A stretch of DNA of 64,000 nucleotides from Tabrizicola fusiformis (GCF_013328815.1 NZ_JABUHN010000008.1:1-64000), one strand, 5' to 3'; counted from the first letter of the stretch, positions 11,196 to 40,941 are shown. Made by a program: numbers and translations. The notes: a model not told the origin generated them from the letters alone.

Positions 11196-11198
11196 GTC

Positions 11199-12284
11199 AT
11201 GGCTCAGGTTCAACTGAAGAACGTGGTCAAGAAATACGGCGCCGTGGGCGTGGTCCATGCAATCAACCTCGACATCGCCGAGGGGGAGTTCGTGGTGCTG
11301 GTCGGCCCTTCGGGCTGCGGCAAATCCACCACGCTGCGCATGGTGGCCGGGCTTGAGGATATCTCGGGCGGCGAGGTGATCATCGGCGACCGCGTGGTCA
11401 ATGACCTGCCCCCGCGCGAGCGCAACCTGGCAATGGTGTTCCAGAACTATGCGCTTTATCCGCATATGACGGTGCGCGAAAATCTGGGCTTCAGCCTGAA
11501 GATCGCCAAGCGCCCTCAAGCGGAAATCGACCGGGCCGTCGATGAGGCGGCAGGCATCCTGTCGCTGACCCCGCTTCTGGACCGCAAGCCCGGCGCCCTG
11601 TCGGGTGGTCAGCGTCAGCGGGTCGCCATGGGCCGCGCCATCGTCCGTCACCCGGATGTCTTTCTGTTCGACGAACCCCTGTCCAACCTTGATGCCAAGC
11701 TGCGCACCCAGATGCGGGTCGAGATCAAGAAGCTGCATCAGCGCGTCGGGTCCACCGTGATCTATGTCACCCATGACCAGATCGAGGCGATGACCCTTGC
11801 CGACCGCATCGTGATCATGCGCGACGGCCATATCGTGCAGGTCGGCACCCCGCTTGAGGTATTTGAAAACCCGGTGAACACTTTTGTCGCCACCTTCATC
11901 GGTTCGCCGCCGATGAATCTGCTCGAAGGGGTGATCCGGGCCGGTCAGGTCGTTCTGGCCGACGGCACCGCAATTCCGCAACCGCCGGGGCTGAACGTGG
12001 CCGAGGGCCGCAAGGTTCAACTTGGCATCCGCGCCGACAACATCATGCCCGAAGGCCATGCCCTGCCGCCGACCGCCCATATGGCCTTCGTCGAAATGCC
12101 GGTCATCCTGACCGAGCCGCTGGGCACCGAGACCTTGCTTTACGCAACGCTGTCAGGCACCGAAATGCAGGCCAAGATGCTGAATCCCCGCCCGGTTTCC
12201 GCAGGCGAGCGGATGCGTTTCGGCATCGCTCTGGACAAGTGCCACCTGTTCGATGCCGAAACCGGCAACAGTCTGCGGGGCTGA
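11199..12284 (+). CDS. Sugar ABC transporter ATP-binding protein, MalK/UgpC type
   Basis: A 361-residue ATPase that energises the CUT1 importer. Walker A GPSGCGKST (about residues 38-46), signature LSGGQRQR, Walker B VFLFDEPLSNLD and the switch histidine in VIYVTHDQIEA are intact. The C-terminal third is the MalK-type regulatory/TOBE region (LGIRADNIMPEG). It ends 2 bp before the enolase-superfamily gene, showing that transport and catabolic genes form one operon. Confidence 0.95.
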   Translation: MAQVQLKNVVKKYGAVGVVHAINLDIAEGEFVVLVGPSGCGKSTTLRMVAGLEDISGGEVIIGDRVVNDLPPRERNLAMVFQNYALYPHMTVRENLGFSLKIAKRPQAEIDRAVDEAAGILSLTPLLDRKPGALSGGQRQRVAMGRAIVRHPDVFLFDEPLSNLDAKLRTQMRVEIKKLHQRVGSTVIYVTHDQIEAMTLADRIVIMRDGHIVQVGTPLEVFENPVNTFVATFIGSPPMNLLEGVIRAGQVVLADGTAIPQPPGLNVAEGRKVQLGIRADNIMPEGHALPPTAHMAFVEMPVILTEPLGTETLLYATLSGTEMQAKMLNPRPVSAGERMRFGIALDKCHLFDAETGNSLRG

Positions 12285-12286
12285 TC

Positions 12287-24657: not shown

Positions 24658-24711
24658 GGCCCTCCGTGCCGCGCCCACCCGGCGCGGCACCCCACCCTGC
24701 GGGAGACTGCG

Positions 24712-25455
24712 ATGCTGGCGATCACCGGCCTGTCCAAACGCTATGGCGAGACCGTGGCGCTGGATCAGGCGACCATTTCGTTCCGGGCGGGCACCGTCCA
24801 CACCATTCTGGGCGAAAACGGCTCGGGCAAAAGCACCCTGGTCAAGCTGCTGTCAGGCATCGTCCTGCCCGATGCCGGTGCCATCCGGTTCGAAGGGCAG
24901 CCGATCACCGCCCGCAGCCCCGCCGCCTTTCAGGCTGCCGGATTTGCCACCGCCTTTCAGGAAGTGCTGATCGCCCCCGACCGCTCAGTCACCGACAACA
25001 TCCTGCTGGGGCTGGACGGCCTTTTCACCCGCCGCATCCCGCGCCATCAGCGCCGCGACCGGGCCGCCGCCGTTCTAGCGCGCTTTGCCCGCACGGCGAT
25101 TGATCTGGATGCACCCGCAGGATCATTACCCCTCGCAGCCCAACAGCTTGTCGTCTTGGCCCGCGCCGTCGCCCGCAATCCCCGCGTGCTGATCCTGGAT
25201 GAAATCACCGCCGCGCTGGATTTTGCTGACCGCGAGTCAGTGTTCGACTTCATGCGCAGCCAAGCGGCCGCCGGCTGTCTCATCCTGTTCATCACCCACC
25301 GCATGGATGAGGTGATGGCTTTGTCCGATGACATTTCCGTGCTGCGCTCTGGCAGGGTCGTGGCAACCCAAGCCCGCGACACCGCAACACCGGCGCAGCT
25401 TTTGCACTTGATGGCCCCGCAAAAGGCCGAACAGCTTGAGGCGCAGCATGGCTGA
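24712..25455 (+). CDS. Ribose-type ABC ATPase, N-terminal half as a separate gene
   Basis: A 247-residue single ABC domain corresponding to the N-terminal half of RbsA/MglA/XylG. Walker A is GENGSGKSTLVKLL, Walker B is RVLILDEITAALDF and the switch histidine is in LFITHRMDEVM. The signature region is degenerate (LPLAAQQLVVLARAV in place of LSxGEQQ). In nearly all CUT2 transporters the two ABC domains form one chain of about 500 residues; here the second half is another gene, in another frame, overlapping by 8 bp. Both genes have intact frames and a believable start, so I annotate two proteins. Confidence 0.87.
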   Translation: MLAITGLSKRYGETVALDQATISFRAGTVHTILGENGSGKSTLVKLLSGIVLPDAGAIRFEGQPITARSPAAFQAAGFATAFQEVLIAPDRSVTDNILLGLDGLFTRRIPRHQRRDRAAAVLARFARTAIDLDAPAGSLPLAAQQLVVLARAVARNPRVLILDEITAALDFADRESVFDFMRSQAAAGCLILFITHRMDEVMALSDDISVLRSGRVVATQARDTATPAQLLHLMAPQKAEQLEAQHG

Positions 25456-26173
25456 TCTGTCCCTGACCGTCCGCGATCTGTCTTTGCGCAGCAATGCCGC
25501 CCCGCTCTCCACCCGGATCAGCGGCGGCGAGATCGTCGGCCTTGCGGGCCTCGACGGCCATGGCCAGGACGTGTTCCTGCGCAGCCTTGCCGGGCTTGAG
25601 CGCAACAGCGGCGCCGTTGACCTGCAAGGCAACCGCATCGCCACCTTCCGCGACGCCGAGCGGAATGCCGTGGTTTATGTGCCGCGCGACCGCCGCTCGA
25701 CCGGGATTTTTCCCGGCATATCGATCCTCGACAATTTCGCCATCGCCACCCCGGGCCGCGACCGCAGGGGCCCGCTGATCAGCGCCAAGGCCCGCCGCGC
25801 GCGGTATGAGACATGGAAAGAGCGGTTGCAGATCAAGGCGCCCAGCCCCGAAGCCCCCATTACCGCCCTGTCGGGTGGCAATCAGCAAAAGGTGCTGCTG
25901 GCCCGCGCGCTGGCCCGCGATCCCAAGGTGCTGCTGCTGAACGACCCGACCCGCGGCGTCGATGTGGCCACCCGGCTGGTGCTGTATGACCTGTTCCGCG
26001 ATCTGGCCGCCGAGGGCATGGCTCTGGTGATCCTGTCTTCGGAAATCGAAGAAATCCTTGTGCTGTGCAACCGCGTTCTGGTGTTCCGCGACCACGCCCT
26101 TGCCGCCGAGATGGCCGGCGAGGCGATGGGCACCGAAGCCGTTATCGCCGCCATGTTCGGGAGGGCGGCATGA
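25448..26173 (+). CDS. Ribose-type ABC ATPase, C-terminal half as a separate gene
   Basis: A 241-residue protein equal to the C-terminal ABC domain of RbsA. As is normal for that half, Walker A is degenerate and lacks the lysine (GLAGLDGHGQDVFL). The signature is perfect (LSGGNQQKVLLARAL). In Walker B the usual catalytic Glu is Asp: VLLLNDPTRGVDV. ATG 25448 overlaps the preceding stop; its Shine-Dalgarno region (GAGGCG) lies within that gene. Together with the preceding product it would form the ATPase of the importer, as a heterodimer of single-domain chains. Confidence 0.87.
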   Translation: MADLSLTVRDLSLRSNAAPLSTRISGGEIVGLAGLDGHGQDVFLRSLAGLERNSGAVDLQGNRIATFRDAERNAVVYVPRDRRSTGIFPGISILDNFAIATPGRDRRGPLISAKARRARYETWKERLQIKAPSPEAPITALSGGNQQKVLLARALARDPKVLLLNDPTRGVDVATRLVLYDLFRDLAAEGMALVILSSEIEEILVLCNRVLVFRDHALAAEMAGEAMGTEAVIAAMFGRAA

Positions 26174-27105
26174 CCCGCATCTTTGGCCGCTATGGCTTTG
26201 CCATCGGCATCCTTGTGGTGCTGCTGATCGCCAATCTGGTGATGAACCCCGCCCGCTTTGCCCCCGGCAACTGGCCGACGCTGCTGGGGCTGGCCGCGCC
26301 GCTGATCGGGGCCGCGCTGGCCTCGACCCCGGTCATTCTGGCCGGGCGCGGCGGCATCGACATCTCGGTCGGCCCGGTGATGGGGCTGGTCAGTGCCGTG
26401 GTGATCAAGGTGCTTTACCTTGATGCAGGGCTGGCCTCGCCCTTCATCCTGTGGCCTGCGGCGCTGCTGATCGGGGCCGCCATCGGCGCCTTCAACGGCG
26501 CCATGGCAACCGTGGTGCGGGTGCAGCCGATCGTAGCCACGCTGGGCACCTATCTGATCCTTGGCGGGCTGACGCTGACCATCCTGCCGGCGCCCATCGG
26601 CCCCGCCCCCGACTGGCTGAAGGCGATGGCGGGCGCGTGGAGCTTTCTGCCCCTTGGCCTGATTGCCGCCCTCTGGTGGGCTTTGTGCCGCACACCTTTC
26701 CATGATCAGCTCATGGCCGTCGGCAGCGATGACCGCGCCGCCTATACCGCAGGTGTTCCGGTCAGCCTGACCCGGTTTCTGGCCTATGTGCTGACAGGTT
26801 TGCTGGCGGGGGCTGCGGGGATGATGCTGACGGCGCTGATCGGCTCGGCCGACCCGAAGGTGGGCGCCAATTACACCCTGATCGCCATTGCCGCGGTGGC
26901 TTTGGGCGGCGTCAGTCTGGCGGGCGGGCGCGGTGGCCTCTTGGGGGCGGCCATAGGCGCGGTGGACATCTTCCTGCTGCAAAGCCTGCTGACTGCCTTC
27001 AACGTCTCGACCTATGTGTTGCAGGTCGCCTATGGCACGATCCTTGTCGTTGCCGTTGTGCTGATTGCCCTGCAGGACCGCAGCACCAAACGGAGCCACG
27101 CATGA
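26170..27105 (+). CDS. Ribose-type ABC transporter permease 1
   Basis: A 311-residue CUT2-family permease (RbsC type, PF02653) with about eight to ten membrane helices. The conserved GRGGIDISVGPVMGL near residue 58 and ALGGVSLAGGRGGLLGA near residue 246 are the family's repeated glycine-rich motifs. ATG 26170 overlaps the ATPase stop (ATGA). The operon encodes two different permeases, so the channel is likely a heterodimer. Confidence 0.92.
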   Translation: MTRIFGRYGFAIGILVVLLIANLVMNPARFAPGNWPTLLGLAAPLIGAALASTPVILAGRGGIDISVGPVMGLVSAVVIKVLYLDAGLASPFILWPAALLIGAAIGAFNGAMATVVRVQPIVATLGTYLILGGLTLTILPAPIGPAPDWLKAMAGAWSFLPLGLIAALWWALCRTPFHDQLMAVGSDDRAAYTAGVPVSLTRFLAYVLTGLLAGAAGMMLTALIGSADPKVGANYTLIAIAAVALGGVSLAGGRGGLLGAAIGAVDIFLLQSLLTAFNVSTYVLQVAYGTILVVAVVLIALQDRSTKRSHA

Positions 27106-28064
27106 CCCTGCCTCTCGACAGTATCAAGGCCCGCGTGCTGGGGGCATTCGCCGTGGCACTGGTGCTGCATGGCATCGGAACCGCGCTGATCCCCGGCTAT
27201 TCCGCGCCCTTTGCCATCCGTGCCATGCTTGTGATCGCAAGCTTGCTCGCCGTGGCCTCGATCGGGCAGACGCTGGTAGTGATCCTTGGCGGGATTGACC
27301 TGTCCATTCCCTTCGTGATCGGTTTCGCCAATGTCGTTGCGGCCCAGCTTTACGGTCAGGGCTGGCATTTCGGGCTGGTCTGCGCGGTGGTCTTTGGCCT
27401 TGCCGCGCTGATCGGCGCCTTCAACGGCGCGCTGTCGCGCGGGCTGAACCTGCATCCGCTGATCGTCACCCTTGGCGTGGGCATGGTCGTGCAGGGCCTT
27501 GTTCTGATCTGGACCAAGGGCTTTCCGTCCGGCTCTGCCCCGAAAGCCGTGTCAGGTTTCGTTTCGATCGGCGGCTCGTTCGGGCCGCTGCCGGTGCCCG
27601 CGCTGATCCCGACGCTGCTTGTCCTGACGGTGCTGATCGTGCTGGTGCTTGAACGCACGCCCTATGGCCGCCGGCTTTATGCCCTTGGCTCGAACCCCGG
27701 GGCGGCGCCCTATGCGCTGATCAACCCGCTGCGCATCTGGACCGTCACCTTTGCGGCTTCCGCAGTGTTTGCCGCCATGGCCGGGGTGCTGCTGCTGGGC
27801 TTTACCGGATCGGCCTATGGCGATGTCGGCCAGCCCTATCTGTTCCAGACCATCGCCGCCGTTGTCGTCGGCGGCACCGCCCTTGTCGGCGGGCGGGGAA
27901 GCTTTATCGGCACCATCGCGGGCGTGCTGGTGCTGACCGAGATCAACACGCTGCTGATCGGGCTGAACTTCTCGCCTGCGTCGGTTCAGGCGGCTTTCGG
28001 CGCGATCATTCTGCTGCTCGTCTCGATCTATGGCCGCGAGCGGCATTTCCGCACCACGGTCTGA
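27102..28064 (+). CDS. Ribose-type ABC transporter permease 2
   Basis: A 320-residue CUT2 permease, partner of the preceding one. It carries ILGGIDLSIPFVIGFANV near residue 65 and VVGGTALVGGRGSFIGTIAG near residue 250. The start overlaps the permease 1 stop as ATGA. It is the last gene of the operon 21137-28064 and is followed by a stem-loop before the convergent gene at 28110. Confidence 0.92.
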   Translation: MTLPLDSIKARVLGAFAVALVLHGIGTALIPGYSAPFAIRAMLVIASLLAVASIGQTLVVILGGIDLSIPFVIGFANVVAAQLYGQGWHFGLVCAVVFGLAALIGAFNGALSRGLNLHPLIVTLGVGMVVQGLVLIWTKGFPSGSAPKAVSGFVSIGGSFGPLPVPALIPTLLVLTVLIVLVLERTPYGRRLYALGSNPGAAPYALINPLRIWTVTFAASAVFAAMAGVLLLGFTGSAYGDVGQPYLFQTIAAVVVGGTALVGGRGSFIGTIAGVLVLTEINTLLIGLNFSPASVQAAFGAIILLLVSIYGRERHFRTTV

Positions 28065-28109: not shown

Positions 28110-28712
28110 CTAGCGCGTCGCGCAACCGCTTTCGGCAATCGGGCCATGCGAGACGGCATAGCCTTTGCGCGGATTGATGATGACATCGTAAAAGCCGGTC
28201 AGCCGATACATACAATCATTGGCCGTCGCCGCGCCGACATCGCTGCCATCGACGTAGACATCCAGCCAGGGAAGACCGTTCTTGCCCCGGGCGCAGCCGG
28301 TCAGATGCGGTTGCGGGCCATCGCCGCAGATATCCTCGACAATCGCATAGCGTTGCAGATGCGGCAGGTAAAAGCGGGTGCCCGCCGGAAAATCAAGCCG
28401 CGCCCGCCCCCCGACAAGGCGATACCCCACCGCGATGGTCACCGGATCGTGATAGGTGCCCGTGCCGCCCGCCCTGCTGTGAATGACCGGCCGGGCAATG
28501 GCGGCCGAGCCGGGCGGCGTATTGTCCCAGTAGCTGTAGCCGGTGGTATAGGCGGTGAAATACTGCTCGCCCGCCGAAACCGTCACAAGCCCCTCGGGTG
28601 TCGCCGGGCGCATTTCCGGGCTGCCGGGGAATTGCAGCGGATTTGCCGCAGCCGCACCAGCCAATTGGGCAATCATGCAAGTGAGTGCCCCGAATTTTGC
28701 CAGAATCTTCAT
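28110..28712 (-). CDS. Secreted protein, possible double-psi beta-barrel (3D/RlpA-like) fold
   Basis: A 200-residue protein with a signal peptide (MKILAKFGALTCMIAQLAGA, cleavage near AAAANP). The mature part has YTTGYSYWDNTPPGSA, HSRAGGTGTYHDPVTIAVG, FPAGTRFYLPHLQRYAIVED and WLDVYVDGSD, with cysteines near CGDG, TGCARG, NDCMYR and SGCATR that could pair. The pattern of a T-x-G-T-Y core followed by spaced aspartates recalls 3D-domain or expansin-like barrels, and I recall similar sequences in fungi; neither is certain. ATG 28712 follows GGAG. It stands alone, downstream of an AT-rich spacer, and its function is unknown. Confidence 0.65.
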   Translation of the reverse strand: MKILAKFGALTCMIAQLAGAAAANPLQFPGSPEMRPATPEGLVTVSAGEQYFTAYTTGYSYWDNTPPGSAAIARPVIHSRAGGTGTYHDPVTIAVGYRLVGGRARLDFPAGTRFYLPHLQRYAIVEDICGDGPQPHLTGCARGKNGLPWLDVYVDGSDVGAATANDCMYRLTGFYDVIINPRKGYAVSHGPIAESGCATR

Positions 28713-28919: not shown

Positions 28920-30074
28920 TTAATGCCCGGCATGTGACGTAACAAGCGGCCTGCCGCGGCGTTTCCTGCGGTCGTTCAAGAGCGCCACCAGCAGCATGAT
29001 GTTCATGCCGACCCCGATCAGCAGAATGTCCACCGGGGGCGTGGTCAGGTAGGATATTCTTATGATTTGAATAAGATACCCCAGAATACTGCCCGCCGCA
29101 AAGGCGGGCAGCGCGTTGCGGCCCAGCACCACGATGGCCGCGACATGGCGGCTTTGCGCAATCTTGTGCAGCAGGGGCCAGGCGGCAAGCGCATAGGCAA
29201 GCACGAAGATATGCAGCACCCGCAAGGGCGCAAGATAGGTCTTGTCGAAGGAAATCATGACCTGCGGTGCGCCAAAACGCTCTTGCCATTGCGCAAGGAT
29301 TTCATATCCGCGGTCGGCAATCGACGGAACCTGCATCCACGCCGCCGAAGCCACAAGGCAGATCACCGCTGCAACGGCAATCCAGGCCCGGATCGGCAGC
29401 CATTGCTGATTGCGGCTTTTCGCAAGCCCGATCAACAGGCCGACAACAAACAGAAACTGCCATGACAGCGGATTGAAGAACCATTCGTGATCGGTGGGCC
29501 AGGTCCGAAGATTGACCGCATACCAGCCGACATAGGCCCAAAGCAGGCCCGATCCCACAAGCAGCAGCAAAGGCCAGCGCCACCCGACGGCGATCAGCCC
29601 CGGCGCCGCCAGCAAAAGCAGGATGTAAAGCGGCAGGATATCCGCGCAGTTGAACTGATGCGTCAGGATCAGCAGTGGCGCCAGCAGCCCGGCTGGATCG
29701 TCCAGCACGGGCGCCACATTCCGCTCGGCCGCCATCTCGGCGACGCCGGGCCAGTTCAGCGTGGCCGCGATCATCAGATAGATACACAGGACGACCAGCG
29801 CTTGCACCCACCACAGCGTGAAGGCGCGCGACCATGGGCCAAAGATCGAGCCATCCTCGGACCTCTTGCGGCGCAGCGGGCTGTAGGCCAGCCCGGCAGA
29901 AATCCCCGAGAGCAGCACAAAAGCCTCGGCCGCATCCGAAAAGCCGAAATTGCGCGAGGTATAGGCGCCCAGAACCGTGTCGGGGATGTGGTTTATGAAT
30001 ATCATGATCAACGCCAGACCGCGCAGAAAGTCGATCCGATAATCTCGGGTGCGCGAGGGATCGGGCATCGACAT
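28920..30074 (-). CDS. OpgC-type membrane acyltransferase
   Basis: A 384-residue integral membrane protein with about ten helices, of the OpgC family (PF10129), which modifies osmoregulated periplasmic glucans with succinyl or other groups. The N-terminal RDYRIDFLRGLALIMIFINH with its Arg-Asp and His, then FGFSDAAEAFVLLSGISAGL, is diagnostic. The frame is open up to 30155; I chose ATG 30074, 12 bases after an AGGAG, with ATG 30068 as alternative. No opgG/opgH backbone genes are in the window; instead it faces the glycosyltransferase fusion and DUF3131 gene, so its acceptor may be that polymer. Family is sure, acceptor is not. Confidence 0.87.
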   Translation of the reverse strand: MSMPDPSRTRDYRIDFLRGLALIMIFINHIPDTVLGAYTSRNFGFSDAAEAFVLLSGISAGLAYSPLRRKRSEDGSIFGPWSRAFTLWWVQALVVLCIYLMIAATLNWPGVAEMAAERNVAPVLDDPAGLLAPLLILTHQFNCADILPLYILLLLAAPGLIAVGWRWPLLLLVGSGLLWAYVGWYAVNLRTWPTDHEWFFNPLSWQFLFVVGLLIGLAKSRNQQWLPIRAWIAVAAVICLVASAAWMQVPSIADRGYEILAQWQERFGAPQVMISFDKTYLAPLRVLHIFVLAYALAAWPLLHKIAQSRHVAAIVVLGRNALPAFAAGSILGYLIQIIRISYLTTPPVDILLIGVGMNIMLLVALLNDRRKRRGRPLVTSHAGH

Positions 30075-30398
30075 CTTCTGGGCCAACTCCTGTCCGCTGC
30101 GGATTGTGCGGATGCTGCGTGATCGACCCGCATTGGATGACCGGAGTTTTGCCAAGCCGCAAGAGCCGCCGTGAGATCGGCGCGCGGCTGCGACGGGAAT
30201 CTATGCAGGCCCCGCAGCGGGATTGTCGCCGGTCTCTGCAAGACCGCCGGCGCAGCGCCATAATTCCGACAAATCATTGAACAATACCGGCTACAGGCGG
30301 GGCATTTTTGACTCTGCCACCGGAATGGCGTTAGCTGATCCCGGGTGATCGTCTGAACGTCTTACCAGTTCTTCCTCCTGTTGTCGGAAACGGCCCTG
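30075..30398. other. Intergenic region between opgC-type gene and synthase fusion
   Basis: About 320 bp between divergent genes. It should hold both promoters. Apart from a possible sigma-70 element at 30308-30336 I see no gene, RNA or strong repeat in it. Confidence 0.5.
30308..30336 (+). promoter_or_regulatory. Possible promoter of the polysaccharide synthase operon
   Basis: TTGACT (30308-30313), a 17-bp spacer, then TTAGCT (30331-30336). The -35 is good, the -10 weak. It lies about 60 bp before the start of the synthase gene. Confidence 0.3.
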
Positions 30399-33300
30399 AT
30401 GCGCGCGCCAATTGGCAAGTTGATATCCGCCCCGGTCGCCGGGAAACCGGTGTTCGAAGACCTGAGCGGTCTTCGCGTCCGGCGCGTCAAGCGCTGGGGC
30501 AAGCTGGCCTTTGTCGCCTTGCTGGTCTGGGGCATCGCCATCACGATTGCCATCGTCAACCCGGCCAAGCTGGCAGGCCGCGACGCGGCGCGGCAGGCCG
30601 GCACCGAAAGCCCGGCGGTCGTGGCGCCACAGTCCCCCGGCGCAACGGATGCCAGCCTGCTGATTGACGTCAAGGCACAGACCGGCGCCGGACCGCTGCA
30701 AGATCCGAACCTGAGGGCGCCTGCGGGGCGGCCCGTCTGTTCGGCCGAAACCCTGCCCGCCGGGGCGGCGGTTGCGGCCTCGGACCAGATGTTCCCCTCG
30801 CGCATCTATGCCCTTTTGTCGAACGAGCCGGAAAACGCCTTTCTGCCGCTCTTGCGCAACTGCGGCCGCGTCGATGTGATCCTGCCGGAATGGTTCGAGA
30901 TCAACGCCCCCTCGCTGGCCCTGACCCGCACCGATCTTGACGCCGAAATGCTTGAGGCACTCCGGTCGATCCGCATGGCGCGGGGCGACGCGACCAAGCT
31001 CTGGCCGGTGTTCGGCTTTGGCCGCAGCCTGACCGCCAAGGGCTTTCTCGACGGTCTGACGGACAAGGGCCAAAGCGCCGGACTGGCCAAGGGAATCGTG
31101 CGCGCCGCAGTTGGGATGAAGGCCGAGGCGGCCTGCCTGCGGCTGCGCGACCTCAAGCCCGCCGATGCCGACGCGCTGATGCCATTCCTGACCGATCTTG
31201 CCGCGCAGGCGAAGGGCGAGGGGCTCAAGCTGTGTCTTGTCGCCTCGCTCTTCGATCAGCTTTGGGCAAGCCCCGCACTGCTGGCGCATTTCGACAAGGT
31301 GATCGTGGCCGCCTATCAGGAGCCGTGGATCGGCGCGCAGCCGCAACCACTGGCGCCGCTGGACTGGTTCCGGGCCCAGGTGAAGGTGATCAAGAACCGG
31401 GTTCCGGCCGACAAGCTGGTGATTTCGGTCGGCGGCCATGCGGTGGACTGGGTGTCGGGGCAGGCCGTTCCCGAACGCATCAGCATCGCCCAAGCCATGT
31501 TCCGCATCTCCGAAGCCAGTGCGCGGATTGATTTTTCACCGACGGCCCGCAACAGCTATGCCTCGTTCTTCGACCGGGCCGGCAAGCGGCATCAGATCTG
31601 GATGCTGGATGCCGCCAGCGTTCACAACAATCTGCGGGTCATGCGCGAGCTTGGCCTGTCGGAACTGGCCATAACCAGCCTTGGCGAAGAGGAACCCGCC
31701 TATTGGGACGTGCTGGAGGGTCAGTTGTCGTCGGGCAGGCAATCCTCCTTCGCGGCACCGGAGTTTCCCGACAATGTGGTCTACAGCGGCGAGGGCGCGT
31801 TCTACCGGCTGCACAGCCCCAGCCGCGCCGGGCTGCGGCTCTGGCGGATGGACCCGGACGACGATTACGTCGACGATGTCCGCTTTGACGTGGTTCCCCG
31901 CCCGGCGCAGATGGAGCGCTATGGCACCCGCCTGCCGCGGCAGATCGCCCTGACCTTCGATGACGGCCCCGATGCCGTGGCAACCGCCCGGATTCTGGAT
32001 GTCCTCAAGGCCCAAAAGGCGCCGGCGACGTTCTTTGTGGTCGGCAAGATGGCGCTGTCGGCGCCCGATCTGCTCAAACGCGCCCTTGCCGAAGGCCACA
32101 TGATCGGCTCGCACAGTTTCAGCCATCCGCATCTTGAAGACCTCAGCCCCTTCATGCTGCGCGCCGAACTCAGCGCCAACCGCAGCCTGATCGAAGGCGT
32201 GATCGGGCGCACGCCGATGATCTTCCGCCCGCCCTATATCCGCGGCCCGGGACCGATCAGCGAGGTGGAGGCGATGGCCTTTACCGTCCCCGCCGAAGAG
32301 GGGTATTTCGTTGCGGGCAGCGATATCGTTCCCACCGACTGGGCCGGAACGAGCGCCGACGGGATCGTCCGGCAGGTCTTCGCCGAACTGGAAAAGACCG
32401 GCGGCAATGTGATCGTTCTGCACGATGGCCGCAGCGCCGGAATGCACACCGCCGAGGCGCTGGAGCTGCTGATCCCGGCGCTGCGCGCCCGCGGCTATGA
32501 GATTGTCGGCCTGCCCACCTTGCTGGGCATCACGACCGAGGCCGCCCTGCCGGTGGTCGGCACCGCCGAATCCTTCTTCAAGAGCGTGTCGGTGCAGACG
32601 ATCAGCCTGTGGATTGCCCTTCTGACCGGCATCTTCTGGATCTGCATCTTTGCCAGCGTGCTGCGTTCGGCGCTCTATCTGTTCCTGTCGTTCCGGCGCG
32701 ATCCGGTCTATCCGCGGAACTTTGCCGCGCAACCCTCGGTCACGGTGATCGTTCCGGCCTATAATGAAGAAAAGGTCATCGTGGCCACCGTGCAATCGGT
32801 GCTGGCCAGCGATTATGAACGGCTGTCCTGCATCGTGGTGGATGACGGATCGACCGACGCCACCCTTGCGGTTCTGGCCAAAGCCTTTGGCAAGCATCCG
32901 CGCGTCAAGGTGGTGTCGCAACCCAATCAGGGCAAATGGCAGGCGCTCAACAATGCCTTCCGGCAGGTGGAGACCGAGATTGCGATTTGCGTCGATGCTG
33001 ACACCCGGATTGCCCCCGATGCCATCGGCGAAATCGTGCGGCCCTTTGCCGACAGTAAGGTTGCTGCCGTGGCCGGAACGGTTGTGGTGGCCAATGCCGC
33101 GGGTCTGCTGACCCGGTTCCAGTCGATCGAATATATCACCGCCCAACAGATCGGCCGCCGCGCCCATGAACATCTGAACGGCATCATGGTGGTGCCCGGG
33201 GCGCTTGGCGCATGGCGGGTGGAGGCGGTGCGCGATGTCGGACTTTACTCCAACGAAACCCTGACCGAAGACGCCGACCTGACCATCTGGCTGCGGCGCG

Positions 33301-33854
33301 GCGGCTACCGGATTTCCTATGCCGAGAACGCCCGTGCCTATACCGAAGCGCCGACCGATGTGCGGTCGCTGTTGAAACAGCGGCTGCGCTGGTCCTTCGG
33401 CAATCTGCAAACCCTGTGGAAGCATCGGGGCGCCTTCCTCGAATTCGGTCCGCGCCGGATGATGTCGATGCTCGACATGGTGTTCTTCGGTTATATGCTG
33501 CCGCTGATGTCGCCCATTCTGGACATCCTGTTCCTTGTCTTCCTGGCCGGTCTGGTGTCCGACTGGCACAGCGGGCGGATCGCCGATGGGGTGGAGGTGT
33601 CGCATGTCGCCGTGTTCGGCGTGGCCTTCGTGCAGGTGATGGACCTTGCTGTTGCCTGGATCGCGCATCGCCGCGAAAGGATGCCCGTCTGGCGGCTGAT
33701 CTATCTGATCCCGTTGATGAACCTGTTCTACCGCCCGCTCTTGTATATCACGGTCTACCGCGCCCTCTGGTCCGCCCTCAGCGGCCGGCTGGCCCGCTGG
33801 AACAAGCTGCGCCGCCTTGGGCTTGAGCCGGGCAGGGAGCTGACGGTTCGATGA
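30399..33854 (+). CDS. GH18-like / NodB deacetylase / GT2 synthase fusion
   Basis: A 1151-residue inner-membrane protein. Order: cytoplasmic N terminus; one helix (LAFVALLVWGIAITIAIV, about residues 35-55); a GH18-like barrel (about 110-450) whose catalytic D-x-x-D-x-D-x-E strand is replaced by ACLRLRDLKPAD, so probably inactive or binding only; a NodB polysaccharide deacetylase domain (about 505-710) with LTFDDGPD, SHSFSHPH and FRPPY intact; a helix pair; a GT2 domain (about 765-1010) with IVPAYNEE, VVDDGSTD, CVDADTR, EDADL and QRLRW; then about four helices. Topology puts deacetylase outside and transferase inside. It resembles PgaC fused to a PgaB-like deacetylase. No Shine-Dalgarno decides between ATG 30399 and TTG 30381. 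Confidence 0.88.
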   Translation: MRAPIGKLISAPVAGKPVFEDLSGLRVRRVKRWGKLAFVALLVWGIAITIAIVNPAKLAGRDAARQAGTESPAVVAPQSPGATDASLLIDVKAQTGAGPLQDPNLRAPAGRPVCSAETLPAGAAVAASDQMFPSRIYALLSNEPENAFLPLLRNCGRVDVILPEWFEINAPSLALTRTDLDAEMLEALRSIRMARGDATKLWPVFGFGRSLTAKGFLDGLTDKGQSAGLAKGIVRAAVGMKAEAACLRLRDLKPADADALMPFLTDLAAQAKGEGLKLCLVASLFDQLWASPALLAHFDKVIVAAYQEPWIGAQPQPLAPLDWFRAQVKVIKNRVPADKLVISVGGHAVDWVSGQAVPERISIAQAMFRISEASARIDFSPTARNSYASFFDRAGKRHQIWMLDAASVHNNLRVMRELGLSELAITSLGEEEPAYWDVLEGQLSSGRQSSFAAPEFPDNVVYSGEGAFYRLHSPSRAGLRLWRMDPDDDYVDDVRFDVVPRPAQMERYGTRLPRQIALTFDDGPDAVATARILDVLKAQKAPATFFVVGKMALSAPDLLKRALAEGHMIGSHSFSHPHLEDLSPFMLRAELSANRSLIEGVIGRTPMIFRPPYIRGPGPISEVEAMAFTVPAEEGYFVAGSDIVPTDWAGTSADGIVRQVFAELEKTGGNVIVLHDGRSAGMHTAEALELLIPALRARGYEIVGLPTLLGITTEAALPVVGTAESFFKSVSVQTISLWIALLTGIFWICIFASVLRSALYLFLSFRRDPVYPRNFAAQPSVTVIVPAYNEEKVIVATVQSVLASDYERLSCIVVDDGSTDATLAVLAKAFGKHPRVKVVSQPNQGKWQALNNAFRQVETEIAICVDADTRIAPDAIGEIVRPFADSKVAAVAGTVVVANAAGLLTRFQSIEYITAQQIGRRAHEHLNGIMVVPGALGAWRVEAVRDVGLYSNETLTEDADLTIWLRRGGYRISYAENARAYTEAPTDVRSLLKQRLRWSFGNLQTLWKHRGAFLEFGPRRMMSMLDMVFFGYMLPLMSPILDILFLVFLAGLVSDWHSGRIADGVEVSHVAVFGVAFVQVMDLAVAWIAHRRERMPVWRLIYLIPLMNLFYRPLLYITVYRALWSALSGRLARWNKLRRLGLEPGRELTVR

Positions 33855-36379
33855 GGCGGCGCAGCTTTCTTGAACTGCTGATGGCCAGCCCGGTCCTCAG
33901 CCAGATGGCCTTGGCGCAAGAGGTCGCCCTGCCCGAACCGCAGCGCGTGCTTCTGACCCTTTCCGGCATCGGCGCGGCAACGGACCCGGCGGCACTGGGG
34001 GCGCTGCTTGCGGCGCTGGTGGCCGGGGGCGTTCCCGTCAATCTGGTGATCTCAACCCGCGAGGCGCCGGACCGCCTGCAGCAAGGCAGCGAGACCGCAA
34101 GACTGATCCTGCGCTATGTCGAATCCTTTCCCGGTCTGGTCGAGGTGGTGGCATGGTGTCCCGATCTGGGGCAACTGCCGCCCTATCAGGCCGCAAGACA
34201 GGCACAGGAAACCCGCACGACCCTGTATGACGTGCTGCAACCCGGCGCGGGCAACGATCCGCTGCGCCAGCCGCTGCTGTCGATCGCCTGCCGCGCCCCG
34301 CTGGATTCCGGGGCGGCATCGGCCGTTCTGGCCTCGGGCTTTCGCAATGTGCTTGAGCTGCCCGAAACCGGATCACCTGTAACCGCCCGGCAAGACCGGC
34401 TGGGCGTTCTGACGCTGCTCGGCGGTGAAAACCACCGGATCGAAGGGGTTGCGGCGGCGCTCTCGCAAAAGGTTCCGGGCCTGCAACGCCATCTGGTCCT
34501 GTCGGCCGATGACATCTCGCAAACGCCGGTCGAGACACTTCTTGCCGCCGCGGGGGACATCGGGCGCGTGCTGCGCGAAGCCACGCTGTCGCTGACCATG
34601 CTGTCGGTTCTGGCCAACGATCTGCAAATGCGCACGGACACCGCCTTTCGCCGCCGGGTCGCGGTGCTTGTGCTGGAAACCCCGGGCAATGCGGAGCCTT
34701 CCCTGCAACAGCAGCTTGCAGGCGAAGGCATCGGTTTCAGCACAGCCTCGGTGCCGCCCGATGCGGTGGGTGGTCTGCCGTTCTGGGTTCCGCTGGACCT
34801 GCCGCAGGGGGGGGCCTTCAATTCCGATACCGCCTTTGGCAACTTTGCGCAGGAACGGATCACCCTTGCCCGGCCCGGCAGCATCGCGGGCAAAGACCTG
34901 CGCTTTGGCGTCGTGGTCCGGCCGGTCCCCGGGGCAGAGCAGGCCGGGCTGACGCCGCAGGCAGAGTTCAACATCCCCCTGCTTGCCTTTGTCGGCACGG
35001 CGGGAGATGCGCTTGAAGGTGGCTTCCAGCTTGGCCCGGATGGCGATGGCCTGCTGCTCGTTGCCGCCTCGGCCTTGCAGGAACCCGTCGCGCGCACGGC
35101 CTTTCTCCTGACAATCCGGCAAATCGTGTCGCAGGCCGAAACGCGGCTGATGTCGCTGGCCGATTATTGCGCCGAAGCCCTGCCGAAAGACCCGCTGCTG
35201 CCCACGCTGCTGCTGACCCGGTCAAAAAGCTGGCGGCAGCGGAGCGAAGTTTACACGAACACAGCCGATGACCGCACCGCACTTCTGGAAGATGCCCGGG
35301 CGGCATGGGCCTTCTTTGATCGCAACACCAACAGCAATACGGGCCTGTCGGCGGTCACCTCGATCACCGGGGGCGACCCGGGTGACGCCTATAGCGCGGT
35401 CAGCATGTGGGAGGCGGGCAGCCATATCAACGCGATGATCGCGGCGGTGGACCTTGGCCTGATCGGGGACGAAGAGTTCACCGAGCGGTGCCAGCGCCTG
35501 TTGCGCACCCTTGAACGCGCGTCCAGAAAGCGTCTTGTCCTGCCACCCGAAACCATGGACGCCATGACCGGCAAGGGCACGACCCGCTTCAACTCTTATG
35601 ACACGGGCCGGTTGATGATTGCGCTGCACCGGCTGAACGCGCATCGGCTGGCGCCGCCGGGGCTGAACGATCTTGTCGCCTCGTGGGACTTTTCCAAGGT
35701 CATTCTCGACCGCCGCCTGCATTCCTGGCGCGAACAGAAGATGGTCGATGACTTCGCCTCGAACTATGCCGATTATGCGGCGGCGGGAATGCGGCTCTGG
35801 GGCTTTGACGTCGCCTCGCCCTTCGATGATTTCGCCGGCCTGACCTCTGCCGATGACGAGGCGCGTCTGCTTGCCGCCACCGTATCCTTCGGCGTGCTGG
35901 GGGCCGAGCCGTGCTTTCTGCATCTTCTGGAAATGCCGGGATCGCCCGCCGCCGGATATCTGGCCGATTGCCTTGACCTCATCCAGTCGCGTCTGGCCGA
36001 AGCAACTGGCGTGACCGCAGCCCCGTCGGAATCGCCGCTCGACCGTTCCCCCTGGTTCACCTATCAGGGCTTTGACGTGAGCAAGCTGGCCGACCCTTGG
36101 GTGGTTCTGTTCACCGAAAAAGGGGCTGCGACCTCGACGCAGACCGACGACCGCAGCTTGCGCGCCACAAGCACGAAGGCCGCCTATATGTGGCACGCGC
36201 TGCGCCCCAGCACCTATTCGGCGCGGCTGATCGAAACCCTGCGCGCCAAGGCACGCCGGGACTATGGTTTTGATTCCGCGTTCTTTACCGACTCACAGAT
36301 GCCGGCGGCGGGCTATTCCGACCTCAACACCAACGCCGCCATCCTGCAATCCATCGCGCACGCCCTTGCAGCGGGCTGA
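33851..36379 (+). CDS. Secreted DUF3131 protein coupled to the synthase
   Basis: An 842-residue exported protein. The N terminus MRRRSFLELLMASPVLSQMA with AQEV cleavage looks Tat-like. Residues about 35-440 form a domain with deacetylase-like spacing (VLLTLSGIGAATDPAALG) but without recognisable catalytic motifs. Residues about 450-840 match DUF3131, an alpha/alpha-toroid glucoamylase-like domain: TGLSAVTSITGGDPGDAYSA, MWEAGSHINAMIAAVDLGLI, RFNSYDTGRLMIALHRLN. ATG 33851 overlaps the synthase stop (ATGA). It probably trims, binds or exports the polymer made by the synthase in the periplasm. The substrate is unknown. Confidence 0.83.
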   Translation: MRRRSFLELLMASPVLSQMALAQEVALPEPQRVLLTLSGIGAATDPAALGALLAALVAGGVPVNLVISTREAPDRLQQGSETARLILRYVESFPGLVEVVAWCPDLGQLPPYQAARQAQETRTTLYDVLQPGAGNDPLRQPLLSIACRAPLDSGAASAVLASGFRNVLELPETGSPVTARQDRLGVLTLLGGENHRIEGVAAALSQKVPGLQRHLVLSADDISQTPVETLLAAAGDIGRVLREATLSLTMLSVLANDLQMRTDTAFRRRVAVLVLETPGNAEPSLQQQLAGEGIGFSTASVPPDAVGGLPFWVPLDLPQGGAFNSDTAFGNFAQERITLARPGSIAGKDLRFGVVVRPVPGAEQAGLTPQAEFNIPLLAFVGTAGDALEGGFQLGPDGDGLLLVAASALQEPVARTAFLLTIRQIVSQAETRLMSLADYCAEALPKDPLLPTLLLTRSKSWRQRSEVYTNTADDRTALLEDARAAWAFFDRNTNSNTGLSAVTSITGGDPGDAYSAVSMWEAGSHINAMIAAVDLGLIGDEEFTERCQRLLRTLERASRKRLVLPPETMDAMTGKGTTRFNSYDTGRLMIALHRLNAHRLAPPGLNDLVASWDFSKVILDRRLHSWREQKMVDDFASNYADYAAAGMRLWGFDVASPFDDFAGLTSADDEARLLAATVSFGVLGAEPCFLHLLEMPGSPAAGYLADCLDLIQSRLAEATGVTAAPSESPLDRSPWFTYQGFDVSKLADPWVVLFTEKGAATSTQTDDRSLRATSTKAAYMWHALRPSTYSARLIETLRAKARRDYGFDSAFFTDSQMPAAGYSDLNTNAAILQSIAHALAAG

Positions 36380-36400: not shown

Positions 36401-36754
36401 TCAGCCGACGGGACGCAGCGCCGCCCAATTCGGTGGCGTGACCACAAAGAACCCCGCCGTCGTGCCCTTTGACTTGTAGCGCAGCGGGGTGTCCTTTGGC
36501 AGCCACATCATGTCGCCCGGCTGCATGAAATGGTCCTTGCCGTTCACCTCGATCGAGAAGCTCTCCTCGATGCTGTGACAAATCCAGACCTCGTCATACC
36601 AAAGGGTAAAGGGGATGTCGCAATCGCGGAACCAGACGGTCCCAGCGGCCATGCTGGCCTGATCCTTGTCGTCGATCTGCACATGGGTCGAACCGCCCCG
36701 GGGCGACCAGTTCTGCACCAGATCGGCAAAGCGGCAAAGTTTCACTTCGGACAT
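36401..36754 (-). CDS. Small cupin-domain protein
   Basis: A 117-residue single-domain cupin. The strand pattern IPFTLWYDEVWICHSIEESF and FMQPGDMMWLPKDTPLRYKS is the double cupin motif, resembling EutQ-like or ethanolamine/choline-type cupins. ATG 36754 has AGGAG seven bases upstream. It is 17 bp downstream of the amine oxidase gene, in the same direction, and so may be a small binding or isomerase-type enzyme for the amine oxidase product. Specific function is not known. Confidence 0.78.
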   Translation of the reverse strand: MSEVKLCRFADLVQNWSPRGGSTHVQIDDKDQASMAAGTVWFRDCDIPFTLWYDEVWICHSIEESFSIEVNGKDHFMQPGDMMWLPKDTPLRYKSKGTTAGFFVVTPPNWAALRPVG

Positions 36755-36771
36755 GTCCTGCTCCTTGCGTT

Positions 36772-38133
36772 TCAATGCGCCAGCGCGGTCAGAACCTGCC
36801 GGGCCGCCGCCTCCCCCGCAGCAAGGGCGCCTTCCATATAGCCGCGGAATTCGGTCGCCATATGCGTGCCCGCCCAATGGATCGGACCGGCAGGCGCGCG
36901 CAGGGCCGCGCCGTATTGCGTCAACTGCCCCGGCACGAGGAAGGGGCTTGAGGCGCCGCCCGACCATTGCTCGTCGGCCCAGACCTGCATGTGGAACTCC
37001 AGAGGGGTCTGCGCCTCCGGCCCCAGGGCCTGGGCAAGAACGGCCAGAACCGCCCGCCGCCGCCCGGCCTCGTCAAGCGGGTCCACATGCAGCGCGGCCT
37101 TGCCCGAGAACAGCGCAATCATCACGCCATGGCCCGGCTCTGCACCGCTGATGTCCAAGGCAGCCGTCAGCGCGCCGCTGGTCGAGATGACATGCCCGTT
37201 CAGCCCCTTCTCGCGCCAGAACGGCCGATCATAAACGGCAACCGCCTTGGAATTGCGGCCATTGGGAAAACGTTGGTGCAGCAACCGGCGCGCGGCAGGC
37301 AGCGCCGGCGCAAAACCGATCTGCTGCACCATCGCCGGAGAGCAGGCGAAAATCACCTTCTCCGCTTCAAAGCGGCCGCCATCGGTTTCCACCGCAACGC
37401 TCTTGTCGGACCATTCCACGCGCCGCGCCGCGCTGCCCAGAAAGACATCGCCGTCAAGGTCGGCGGCCATTCCTTCCGAAACCCCTTGCGAGCCCCACAG
37501 ATGCTCGGACATGCCGCCCGTCTCGACATCGGACATGAAGCGGGGGCCGCCGCAGCCGCGAAGCTTCTGGATTAGCTCAAGGGCTGACACCTCTTCGGGC
37601 ATCACGCCGTAATAGGCCCCGGGCAGCCGCAGCAGGGCGTTGCGCGCCATTCCCGGCGGCAGGATTTCGCAAACCCAGCTCTGATAGGTCATCTGGTCAA
37701 GGCGCGCAGCAAGCTCCCCCTCCCAAGGATTGGCCGGAAGCGCATCGAAGACGCCATAAAGCGTGTCGAACGCCTGCGTATAGGCCGCCCAATCCGCCTC
37801 GCTCATACCGGGAATCGTCCCCATCGGGCCGCGGAACGTCTTGTCTTCATGGATGCAAATTCGCGCGCCATCGGCGAATTGCTTGCGCACGGGCACGTCA
37901 TAGCGCCGGATCAGCCCGTAAATCCGTTTGTGGAATTTCGAGACCCACTGACCGCCAAGATCCACCCGGCGCCCCAACGTCGGGCTGTGCGGCGAAAGGG
38001 TCAACCCGCCCACGCGGTCGCGCGCCTCAAGGACCGCAACCGACCGGCCCGCCTCCTTGAGGTGCAGCGCGGCATAAAGGCCGGACAGGCCGCCACCGAT
38101 GACAATGACCTGACGCCTGACGACGGTGTTCAT
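36772..38133 (-). CDS. FAD-dependent amine oxidase
   Basis: A 453-residue flavin monoamine oxidase-family protein. The FAD dinucleotide motif is VIVIGGGLSGLYAALHLKEA with EARDRVGG; the C-terminal flavin segment is HWAGTHMATEFRGYMEGALA. The cysteine used for covalent FAD in animal MAO is not evident. It has no signal peptide. ATG 38133 is chosen because it begins the Rossmann fold in the usual position; upstream methionines have no support. It is encoded between a family-5 binding protein and a cupin, so the oxidised compound is probably an imported amine or amino-acid derivative. Confidence 0.88.
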   Translation of the reverse strand: MNTVVRRQVIVIGGGLSGLYAALHLKEAGRSVAVLEARDRVGGLTLSPHSPTLGRRVDLGGQWVSKFHKRIYGLIRRYDVPVRKQFADGARICIHEDKTFRGPMGTIPGMSEADWAAYTQAFDTLYGVFDALPANPWEGELAARLDQMTYQSWVCEILPPGMARNALLRLPGAYYGVMPEEVSALELIQKLRGCGGPRFMSDVETGGMSEHLWGSQGVSEGMAADLDGDVFLGSAARRVEWSDKSVAVETDGGRFEAEKVIFACSPAMVQQIGFAPALPAARRLLHQRFPNGRNSKAVAVYDRPFWREKGLNGHVISTSGALTAALDISGAEPGHGVMIALFSGKAALHVDPLDEAGRRRAVLAVLAQALGPEAQTPLEFHMQVWADEQWSGGASSPFLVPGQLTQYGAALRAPAGPIHWAGTHMATEFRGYMEGALAAGEAAARQVLTALAH

Positions 38134-38204
38134 TTCTTGCTCTTTCCATTGAATTGCGTGGCTCTGCGGGGGCATCCCCCCACAGAGCCGATTGCCGGGC
38201 CGGA

Positions 38205-39809
38205 TCACTTGGCCCAGTGCAGCTCGCCAAGAACCAAATTGCAGCAGGCCGAAATCCGGGCCCCTTGCAGGGCAGGGTTGGAGACGAGGATGGTATCGGG
38301 CGCAACGATGGGAAGGATAATCCGATCCTGCGCCATGATCGCCGAAAGTTCGGCAAAGGCCGCCTCGCTCTCGGCGCCGCTGGTGCTGAGGGCACGCTTC
38401 AGGATGTCCTGACCATCGGGATGGGCCAGCGCCGGGTCACTGGCGCCACCGGCACGCTTGTGCCAGACCGTGCCGTCAACCATGCCGAAGTAGCCGAAAT
38501 ACTGCGACGAACCATAGAAATCCGGCACAAAGAACACCGCCGTCATCGGAATGCCATCGCCGTTCACCCGCTCCCGCCAGACGGGGAACTCAAGCGGCTC
38601 CAGCACGATCTTGATGCCGACCGCAGCAAGGTCCATCTGGATTTTCTGCATCATCAGGGTGAAATCGACGCCATATTGCCGCACATTCGGGAAAGCGGCC
38701 TGCAGCGTGAACTCGGCCGGTGCGCCGCCTTCGTCCAGCAGCTTGCGCGCAAGGGCCGGATCATAGGCCGGAAGATCATGCCCGCTGCCGCCCGGGAAAT
38801 CCAGCGGGACCGGAGAAGCCAGACGATGCCCCTTGCCTTCCACGGTCAGCTCGATCAGCGCATCATAGTCGATGGCATGGGCGATCCCCTCGCGGACTTT
38901 GGCGGTCAGCGGAACGTCATTCGCCTTCGCCCCCGGGGACAGCGCAATATAGACCAGCGCCTGCGAGGGCATGGAACTGACCGCAACGCCGGGATCAGAG
39001 GCAACCCGACCAGCGGTCAGCGCATCAACCTGCATCGCCAGATCGGCGGCAGCGGTCTGCACAAGCTGCAACTGGCTTGCGGATTCCGCGGTTTGCAGCA
39101 ATGCCGCCCCTTCAATCGCGGGTTTCTCGCCCCAATAGGCTTCGTTGCGCTTCAGGCGCAGGCTTTCGCCGGGGACATAGCTTTCCAGAACAAAGGGACC
39201 AGCCCCGGCCGAATTTGCCATCAGCCACGCCTCGGCCGTGTCGGCAGTATCGGCGGTTTCATCCGCGCGGCCGCCCTCTGCGGCAACAATGTCGGAATTC
39301 ACGATCCCCATGTAAGGCGCCGAAAGCAGGCCCAGCAGCTCTGAATTGCTGTCCTTCATGCGGATGACAACGGTGTGGCCATCCTGCGCCACAAGCGTCT
39401 CGACACCGGCAAGCAGATAGCCCGCGCCTGCGGTGATGTGGCGAAGCCGGTCCAGTGACCAGACCACATCCTTCGCCTCGACCGGGGAACCATCGGAAAA
39501 GACAGCATCCTTGCGCAGATGGAAGGTGAACTCCTTCTGCGCAGCATCCGCCTCCCAGCTTTCGGCCAGCATCGGAACGATGGTCTTTCCATCGGAATCC
39601 AGATCGACCAGACGGGCATAGACCGCGCTCAGATAAATCTGGCAGGTGTCGCAAAAGCCCCGCGCCGGATCGAGCGAGTTCAGGTCCATATCGCGGGCGA
39701 TGATCACGCCCTGCTCGGTCTGGGCGGCGGCCTCCAGCCCGGCAAAGGCCAGAAGGGCAGCCACCGAAAGCCCCAGCCGCAGCTTTGTCATGGACGACAT
39801 TCGTTTCAT
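38205..39809 (-). CDS. Family-5 (DppA/OppA-like) ABC substrate-binding protein, orphan
   Basis: A 534-residue periplasmic binding protein of extracellular solute-binding family 5, which binds peptides, nickel, opines or glycosides. The signal peptide ends near residue 30 (LLAFAGLEAAAQTEQ). Typical segments are NSLDPARGFCDTCQIYLSAV, LRKDAVFSDGSPVEAKDVVWS and ALVYIALSPGAK. GGAGG stands before ATG 39809. No dppBCDF permease or ATPase genes follow; the next genes are an amine oxidase and a cupin. It either uses a transporter encoded elsewhere or the permeases have been lost. Confidence 0.9.
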   Translation of the reverse strand: MKRMSSMTKLRLGLSVAALLAFAGLEAAAQTEQGVIIARDMDLNSLDPARGFCDTCQIYLSAVYARLVDLDSDGKTIVPMLAESWEADAAQKEFTFHLRKDAVFSDGSPVEAKDVVWSLDRLRHITAGAGYLLAGVETLVAQDGHTVVIRMKDSNSELLGLLSAPYMGIVNSDIVAAEGGRADETADTADTAEAWLMANSAGAGPFVLESYVPGESLRLKRNEAYWGEKPAIEGAALLQTAESASQLQLVQTAAADLAMQVDALTAGRVASDPGVAVSSMPSQALVYIALSPGAKANDVPLTAKVREGIAHAIDYDALIELTVEGKGHRLASPVPLDFPGGSGHDLPAYDPALARKLLDEGGAPAEFTLQAAFPNVRQYGVDFTLMMQKIQMDLAAVGIKIVLEPLEFPVWRERVNGDGIPMTAVFFVPDFYGSSQYFGYFGMVDGTVWHKRAGGASDPALAHPDGQDILKRALSTSGAESEAAFAELSAIMAQDRIILPIVAPDTILVSNPALQGARISACCNLVLGELHWAK

Positions 39810-39948
39810 CGCGCTCCTCCCTGAGCAGGTTTGTCAGCGCATCTTCCGAAAAGCGGGCGAAAGCGTGATTGCACATGGCGCCAGGAATATTGCATTTCCC
39901 GACAGAACCGCGACCATGCTGCGGATCGGCTGCGAAATTGGACATCTT

Positions 39949-40941
39949 ATGGACATCTTTCGAATCGCCATGCTCTGCGTCGGCGAGATTTCGTTGCATA
40001 CAGCCCTTCTGGCCGTCGAACCGTTCCGGGCTGCAAACCGGCTCGGTCCCGGCAAGCCGTTCGAGATTGACTTCGTTGGCCTGACGGGCGGTGTGCTGCA
40101 CAGCATGATCGGCCTGCCGCTTGCAACGCGGGCGGTTGCAGAGATCGGTTCAAACGCCAATCTGGCGCTGATTCTGGCCTGCTATGACACCGAACCCAGC
40201 GAAAAACCGCGCCTGTTTTCCTGGCTGCGCGCCCTGCGCAAACGGGGGGCGCAAATCGCCGGCATTGATTACGCCCCGCTTCTGCTGGCCGAGGCCGGGC
40301 TGCTGACCAACCGGCGTGCGACCGCGCATTGGAGCGCACTGGCCGCCTTTTCGGAACGCCACGCCGATATCCGGGTTGAAGACGCGCTTTATGTCATCGA
40401 CGGCGATATCGCCACCTGCGCCGGACAGATTGCCACCCTCGACTTCTCACTGGCCCTGCTGAAACCGCATGTCAGTGCCGAAATGTTTCAGGCCGTTCAG
40501 GACGACCTGGTTTATCGCGCCCGCGATCGTGGCGATCAGCCACAGCGCCCCTCGCGGATCGAAACGCAAAGGCGCGGCGATCCGGCCCTGACCAAAGCCA
40601 TCGCCCTGATGGAAGCCCATATCGAAGATCCGCTGCCTGTGACCCAGATTGCGCGGCAGGTCGGGTTGAGCGAGCGGGAACTACAACGGCAGTTCCGCGG
40701 GCATATCGGTCAGGGTCCGACGCTGTATTACAGGGATATCCGGCTCAACCGGGCGTTCAACCTGTTGCAATATTCGGCACTGTCGGTCCGCGAGGTCGGC
40801 CTTGCCACCGGCTTTGCCGACCATTCCACCTTCTACCGTGCCTTCCGCAGCCGCTTTCACCAAAGCCCGCAAAACCTCCGCGCGGGCTTTCGCGCCGCCT
40901 CTGCCACGCCACACGGTCGGCAGATCGGCTTCACCACCTGA
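39949..40941 (+). CDS. GlxA-type AraC regulator (DJ-1/PfpI plus helix-turn-helix)
   Basis: A 330-residue regulator. The N-terminal DJ-1/PfpI-like domain (about residues 1-185) begins IFRIAMLCVGEISLHTALLA followed by EPFRAANRL, the form seen in GlxA, GbdR and ArgR-type activators of amine and amino-acid catabolism. The C-terminal AraC domain (about 225-320) has two helix-turn-helix units (VTQIARQVGLSERELQRQF; VREVGLATGFADHSTFYRAF). ATG 39949 fits the family N terminus; ATG 39916 is also possible. It diverges from the binding-protein gene and is its likely activator. Confidence 0.9.
   Translation: MDIFRIAMLCVGEISLHTALLAVEPFRAANRLGPGKPFEIDFVGLTGGVLHSMIGLPLATRAVAEIGSNANLALILACYDTEPSEKPRLFSWLRALRKRGAQIAGIDYAPLLLAEAGLLTNRRATAHWSALAAFSERHADIRVEDALYVIDGDIATCAGQIATLDFSLALLKPHVSAEMFQAVQDDLVYRARDRGDQPQRPSRIETQRRGDPALTKAIALMEAHIEDPLPVTQIARQVGLSERELQRQFRGHIGQGPTLYYRDIRLNRAFNLLQYSALSVREVGLATGFADHSTFYRAFRSRFHQSPQNLRAGFRAASATPHGRQIGFTT

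Follow-up and report, generated by a model that had tools for sequence, protein, structure and literature searches.

Several described systems bring together a processive family 2 glycosyltransferase (GT2) and a polysaccharide deacetylase. The Streptomyces protein MatB carries GT2 and CE4 domains in one chain and makes a polymer resembling poly-N-acetylglucosamine (PNAG; PMC5972031), and a survey of biofilm operons described Gram-negative clades of deacetylase-glycosyltransferase (pgaB-GT) fusions without the pgaA porin (PMC7112194). In the PgaABCD system, PgaB joins a deacetylase to a hydrolase and cuts deacetylated PNAG only (PMC5933820). Here, a related gene module was analyzed in a 64,000-nucleotide stretch of Tabrizicola fusiformis DNA (GCF_013328815.1, NZ_JABUHN010000008.1:1-64000; hereafter the window), which lies on contig 58 of the 4.4 Mb genome. 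Four genes of the window matter, encoding a fusion protein with GH18-like, NodB/CE4 and GT2 domains (FUS, P0001), an exported DUF3131 protein (P0002), a small secreted protein (P4) and an OpgC-family acyltransferase (P0003).

By analogy, the fusion itself is of a known kind, because MatB and the porin-less Gram-negative fusions had already been described. MatB and FUS are alike in being one membrane protein with a putative extracytoplasmic CE4/NodB domain and a cytoplasmic GT2 domain closest to PgaC. However, the reported domains of MatB are GT2 and CE4 only, with no GH18-like part, its neighbors are MatA and an icaC orthologue rather than DUF3131 and P4, and its host is monoderm (PMC5972031). 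As in PgaABCD (PgaB, GH153 plus CE4; PgaC), a deacetylase, a glycosidase-like domain and a GT2 synthase would serve one polymer, but here the three domains share one chain, the glycosidase-like part is GH18-derived and inactive-looking, and DUF3131 is a constant partner. The rhizobial chitooligosaccharide synthase NodC and deacetylase NodB likewise pair a processive GT2 with NodB; they are encoded by separate genes (e.g., in Sinorhizobium alkalisoli), whereas FUS is one protein, and no GH18-like domain was present in that match. In the literature searched, neither the three-domain fused protein nor DUF3131 together with a deacetylase was found described, and the same held for the constant DUF3131 partner, the link to P4 and the pattern of losses reported below. 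We lean slightly towards reading the module as a synthase-dependent envelope or exopolysaccharide system for a PNAG- or chitosan-like polymer, in which chain cleavage has moved to the DUF3131 protein.

The domains of FUS follow the order GH18-CE4-GT2 in one chain, and full-length homologues occurred in Sphingobium, Deinococcus and Prevotella. The NodB/CE4 (PF01522, E 1.6e-29, residues 519-619) and GT2 (PF13641, E 1.7e-36, residues 785-1007) domains scored above the Pfam cut-offs. The region before NodB had no Pfam match of its own. It was assigned as GH18-derived because PDB sequences of GH18-type enzymes matched it (4s3j, 3cz8, 5jh8) and same-length homologues with this architecture in Prevotella and Deinococcus scored above the cut-off of PF00704. 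Its motif reads ACLRLRDL where homologues read, for example, SGINLDLEDL; the DxE end is RLR, and the Glu of the active-enzyme motif DxxDxDxE is missing. The FDD, HxxxH metal, downstream RPP and LH motifs of CE4/NodB enzymes were all present, as were the D, DxD, TED and QxxRW motifs and transmembrane (TM) helices of processive GT2 synthases; the GT2 motifs were kept throughout an alignment of 31 fusions, barring a few conservative substitutions. The best NCBIfam synthase model for the GT2 domain was PgaC/IcaA, and NodC also matched, both below their cut-offs (181 bits against 422 for the PgaC/IcaA equivalog TIGR03937). Hydropathy indicated one TM helix ahead of the GH18-like part, one ahead of GT2 and further helices after it. 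The GH18-like and NodB parts therefore probably lie on the opposite membrane side from GT2, in the periplasm and the cytoplasm, respectively. A first-pass annotation of the window had described a single polypeptide joining a periplasmic deacetylase and a degenerate glycosidase-like domain to a cytoplasmic GT2 synthase, and the Pfam domains, motifs and TM topology bear this out. The three open reading frames (ORFs) it had placed were also confirmed.

PF11329 was searched in 395 Rhodobacteraceae genomes, and the surroundings of long-DUF3131 matches were inspected; some genomes were draft assemblies, in which an absent neighbor may reflect a contig end. Long DUF3131 proteins were found at 29 places in 28 genomes (~7%). 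FUS adjoined the long DUF3131 gene in all 28 loci with a sufficiently long contig, in tandem in 12 and in opposite orientation in 16. Because the adjacency persists through rearrangement, it argues for FUS and long DUF3131 as a functional pair and the core of the module. The pair was also found on plasmids of Sulfitobacter and Limimaricola. When genome contigs were scanned with P0002, the closest named relatives carrying the module were just two, a Fuscovulum metagenome-assembled genome (MAG; L032) and Tabrizicola oligotrophica. On Sphingobium plasmids (L122, 2683-8982), the same kind of synthase had a different neighborhood, in which a gene of the VirJ family and then one resembling lysylphosphatidylglycerol synthase come after the fusion.

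The nearest solved relatives of the NodB domain were peptidoglycan deacetylases, and the GH18 relatives in the PDB included spore cortex-lytic enzymes. Both would suit cell-wall remodelling, in which the fusion would make a short lipid- or wall-linked oligosaccharide and the target of DUF3131 and P4 would be peptidoglycan or a similar glycan of the wall; another small secreted protein adjoining the module in a NodB-less clade (see below) is of the same tendency. We regard this as very improbable: the module occurred in only 28 of 395 genomes, a rarity that argues against a core wall function, and GT2 carries QRLRW, a motif found in polymer synthases that act processively.

P0002 matched PF11329 with an E-value of 7.8e-58 (196.7 bits, cut-off 20.3). 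A DUF3131 model, predicted from a 28-sequence alignment (pLDDT 86), had the (alpha/alpha)6 barrel of the SGL clan and GH189. Its structural matches, at E 1e-9 to 1e-6, were beta-1,2-glucanases of the GH144/GH162/GH192 type and, in cyclic glucan synthase, the GH189 domain, in agreement with the exported protein of glucoamylase-like fold proposed in the first-pass annotation. The first ~110 residues also aligned with NdvB-type (GH189-type) domains in profile-profile comparison (probability 95.6%), although identity to the SGL/GH189 proteins was 10-15% and their characterized activities are on beta-1,2-glucan. Residues E686 and E727 were invariant in all 37 long and short DUF3131 sequences examined. 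On visual comparison, equating them with the acid and nucleophile of GH189 seemed plausible (GAEP/ASEAR, SE/ISES), but this half did not align significantly by profile and we do not claim it. For descent of the N-terminal half of the protein from a decayed NodB or GH18 barrel, profile comparison likewise gave no significant match. Both leader arginines were invariant in the DUF3131 proteins, and P0002 is therefore a predicted substrate of twin-arginine translocation (Tat). Short DUF3131 proteins (~400-600 aa) also adjoined a GT2 synthase gene in all five loci checked (L103, L104, L105, L107, and L109); this GT2 was a different, cellulose-synthase-like one, the clusters sometimes held two DUF3131 genes, and they apparently represent a second synthase system.

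The fold matches raise the question of whether the product that the module makes and trims is a periplasmic or beta-1,2-linked beta-glucan, with DUF3131 as glucanase or transglycosylase, OpgC acylating the glucan, and NodB directed at a different acyl group or at some minor substituent. We consider this unlikely, since PgaC/IcaA was the top-scoring model for GT2, NodC matched as well, and NodB was intact in the window and in most homologues. Further evidence on both sides came from the losses and from OpgC.

The catalytic Glu of the GH18 domain (DxE) was kept in eight of nine fusions outside Rhodobacterales and was absent from the 31 Rhodobacterales fusions, where the only aligned Glu (L086, CLSPERG) lay outside any DxE motif. 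All NodB motifs were lost in six fusions (L089, L092, L094, L096, L097, and L098), which formed one clade (support 1.0) with a GT2-only relative (L102; G016:C1:2770001-2790000, 8891-12564). The genomes with the six fusions yielded no P4 gene, and that of L102 no DUF3131 match; in one genome, G152, a NodB-less copy coexisted with a NodB-intact one. That this clade retains GT2 and DUF3131 suggests that deacetylation is dispensable to the core, which would agree with a beta-glucan product. An AT3-SGNH acyltransferase stood beside the module in four of the seven clade members, L102 included, and no NodB-intact locus had one as a neighbor (Fisher p ~0.001, descriptive because the sequences are related). 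Of the six NodB-less fusions, five had nearby an unrelated small secreted-looking protein of ~170-250 aa with no Pfam family, which looks lysozyme-like.

These patterns allow a more tentative proposal, which we hold possible rather than likely. DUF3131 may constitute a novel glycosidase or transglycosylase family dedicated to synthase-made polymers, which in Rhodobacterales replaced the fused GH18 in chain processing; one clade may then have swapped N-deacetylation for O-acylation, losing the NodB motifs and P4 and gaining AT3-SGNH in several members. The takeover from GH18 by DUF3131 is suggested by the co-distribution of a single loss with a single gain within one bacterial order.

P4 (200 aa), which has a signal-like leader and matches no Pfam family, was overlooked as a module gene in the first-pass annotation. 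Among the 395 genomes, 19 had P4, and 17 of these also carry the module. Long DUF3131 occurred in 17/19 genomes with P4 vs. 11/376 without it (Fisher p ~1e-20; like the test above, this ignores shared ancestry), and P4 was close to FUS or the DUF3131 gene in 16 loci, including the window and the Fuscovulum MAG. P4 thus belongs to the module and is better linked to it than OpgC. By sequence, it had no match among solved structures. The eight best Foldseek hits of its model (pLDDT 74) in the PDB comprised one cerato-platanin and otherwise only expansins or expansin-like allergens (seven), all non-significant (E 0.04-0.15); P4 is perhaps an expansin-like double-psi beta-barrel protein.

P0003 is a PF10129 (OpgC_C) protein (E 1.1e-86), as had been annotated for the acyltransferase gene divergent from FUS, and so resembles the succinyltransferase of periplasmic glucans. 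It differs in being a second copy, located away from opgGH and beside a different synthase. OpgC adjoined FUS only in the window and the Fuscovulum MAG, where the gene order was the same; in the close relative T. oligotrophica there was no OpgC between P4 and FUS, and none was found in the other module loci examined. The two module-linked OpgC proteins shared 61% identity, vs. 38% between the window copy and the other OpgC of the genome. That other copy belongs to a canonical opgG-opgH-opgC locus on contig 34, where opgG scored 590.8 bits and opgH 959.8 bits (over the equivalog cut-off); the window copy has no opgG or opgH beside it. The window OpgC is best regarded as a lineage-specific add-on, the second OpgC copy of the genome, and the neighborhoods rule it out as a core gene.

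The first-pass annotation had envisaged a compact machine in which the fusion, DUF3131 and OpgC together would make a single hexosamine polymer, deacetylate and trim it, and also acylate it, replacing separate Pga or Opg proteins. The shared gene order in the window and the Fuscovulum MAG and the closeness of their OpgC proteins agree with it, but OpgC is divergent and not co-transcribed with the fusion, and its absence elsewhere leaves such a machine improbable. Neighborhood conservation thus held for FUS and DUF3131 and failed for OpgC. Nothing replaces the Opg proteins, because the genome has its own complete locus; replacement of the Pga proteins is possible, as no match to the PgaA porin (TIGR03939) exceeded the cut-off in the genome. 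For a beta-glucan product, the OpgC family does modify periplasmic glucans (PMC4726272); however, periplasmic glucan is already served by opgGHC in this genome, and OpgC is not conserved with the module.

Returning to the PNAG- or chitosan-like polymer, we infer the sugar, linkage, order of processing, all activities and the roles of P4 and OpgC from the architecture, the intact and lost motifs, the linkage and the fold match read from the sequences. From a UDP sugar, GT2 would build and extrude a PNAG- or chitin-like chain of beta-linked N-acetylhexosamine, and the covalently attached periplasmic NodB would strip some acetyl groups as it emerges. The GH18-derived domain, no longer a hydrolase, would probably just bind or guide the chain. 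The Tat-exported DUF3131 protein would be the periplasmic enzyme that cuts the chain or transfers and re-joins it, assuming a role that in other bacteria may belong to the GH18 domain. Secreted P4 might bind or loosen the deacetylated polymer in the fashion of expansins, and the OpgC paralogue added in this lineage would have either this polymer or a periplasmic glucan as its target for O-acylation. Several observations weigh against this scheme. The best fold relatives of DUF3131 act on beta-1,2-glucan rather than hexosamine polymers, and beyond the first ~110 residues its catalytic residues could not be confidently aligned to GH189. Among the conserved genes of the module, none was found to encode an outer-membrane porin, and the structural matches of P4 were below significance (best E 0.042). 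One outgroup fusion (L004/G051) had lost the GH18 Glu with no DUF3131 nearby, so that replacement of GH18 by DUF3131 is not strict.

Table 1. Positions of the module features in the window and of related features at other loci.
Feature	Position	Strand	Remarks
P4, small secreted protein, possible expansin-like double-psi beta-barrel	28110..28712	-	Linked to module
OpgC-family acyltransferase (P0003)	28920..30074	-	ORF open to TTG 30155; ATG 30074 likely start
FUS	30399..33854	+	N-terminal TM, periplasmic GH18-like, NodB/CE4, TM, cytoplasmic GT2, C-terminal TMs (predicted)
GH18-derived domain of FUS	30783..31895	+	~Residues 135-505 of P0001; catalytic Glu lost; PDB GH18 matches, PF00704 in homologues, motif
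NodB/CE4 deacetylase domain of FUS	31896..32585	+	FDDGPD, HSFSH, RPPY, LHD motifs intact
Processive GT2 domain of FUS	32733..33401	+	VDDGSTD, DADT, TED, QRLRW motifs intact
DUF3131 protein (P0002), predicted Tat-type export, 842 aa	33851..36379	+	Invariant Arg-Arg leader
N-terminal alpha/beta region of DUF3131 protein	33929..35260	+	
DUF3131 (alpha/alpha)-barrel domain	35291..36364	+	E686, 35906-35908; E727, 36029-36031
Canonical opgG-opgH-opgC locus, same genome	L130 (G000:C34:282501-292500), 2181-7178		
Small secreted-looking protein near NodB-less fusions	L089 8396-9061; L092 816-1487; L096 17303-17824; L097 3940-4437; L098 8214-8975		

In the window, P4 and OpgC lie side by side on the minus strand and diverge from FUS and the DUF3131 gene on the plus strand. 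The FUS stop overlaps the start of the DUF3131 gene in ATGA (33851-33854), as previously annotated. The longest FUS ORF opens at TTG 30381; ATG 30399 is the most likely start, since the nearest homologue, in the Fuscovulum MAG, also has Met there. Scans for a promoter or terminator that would argue for an operon scored no better than shuffled sequence. Upstream (23473-28064, plus strand), there was a sugar-type ABC transporter set of a periplasmic binding protein, two ATPase-like ORFs and two permeases. Downstream, at 36401-40941, an AraC/FtrA-type regulator adjoins EutQ-like cupin, flavin amine oxidase and SBP_bac_5 genes, in what looks like a small amine-utilization cluster.

DUF3131 is a family without an assigned function, and its fixed partnership with a synthase, together with its fold, gives it a direct, testable role. 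The module points to a porin-less Gram-negative deacetylase-synthase system. The natural series of active-looking GH18, dead GH18 with DUF3131, dead NodB with AT3-SGNH, and GT2 alone may indicate which processing steps exopolysaccharide systems need.

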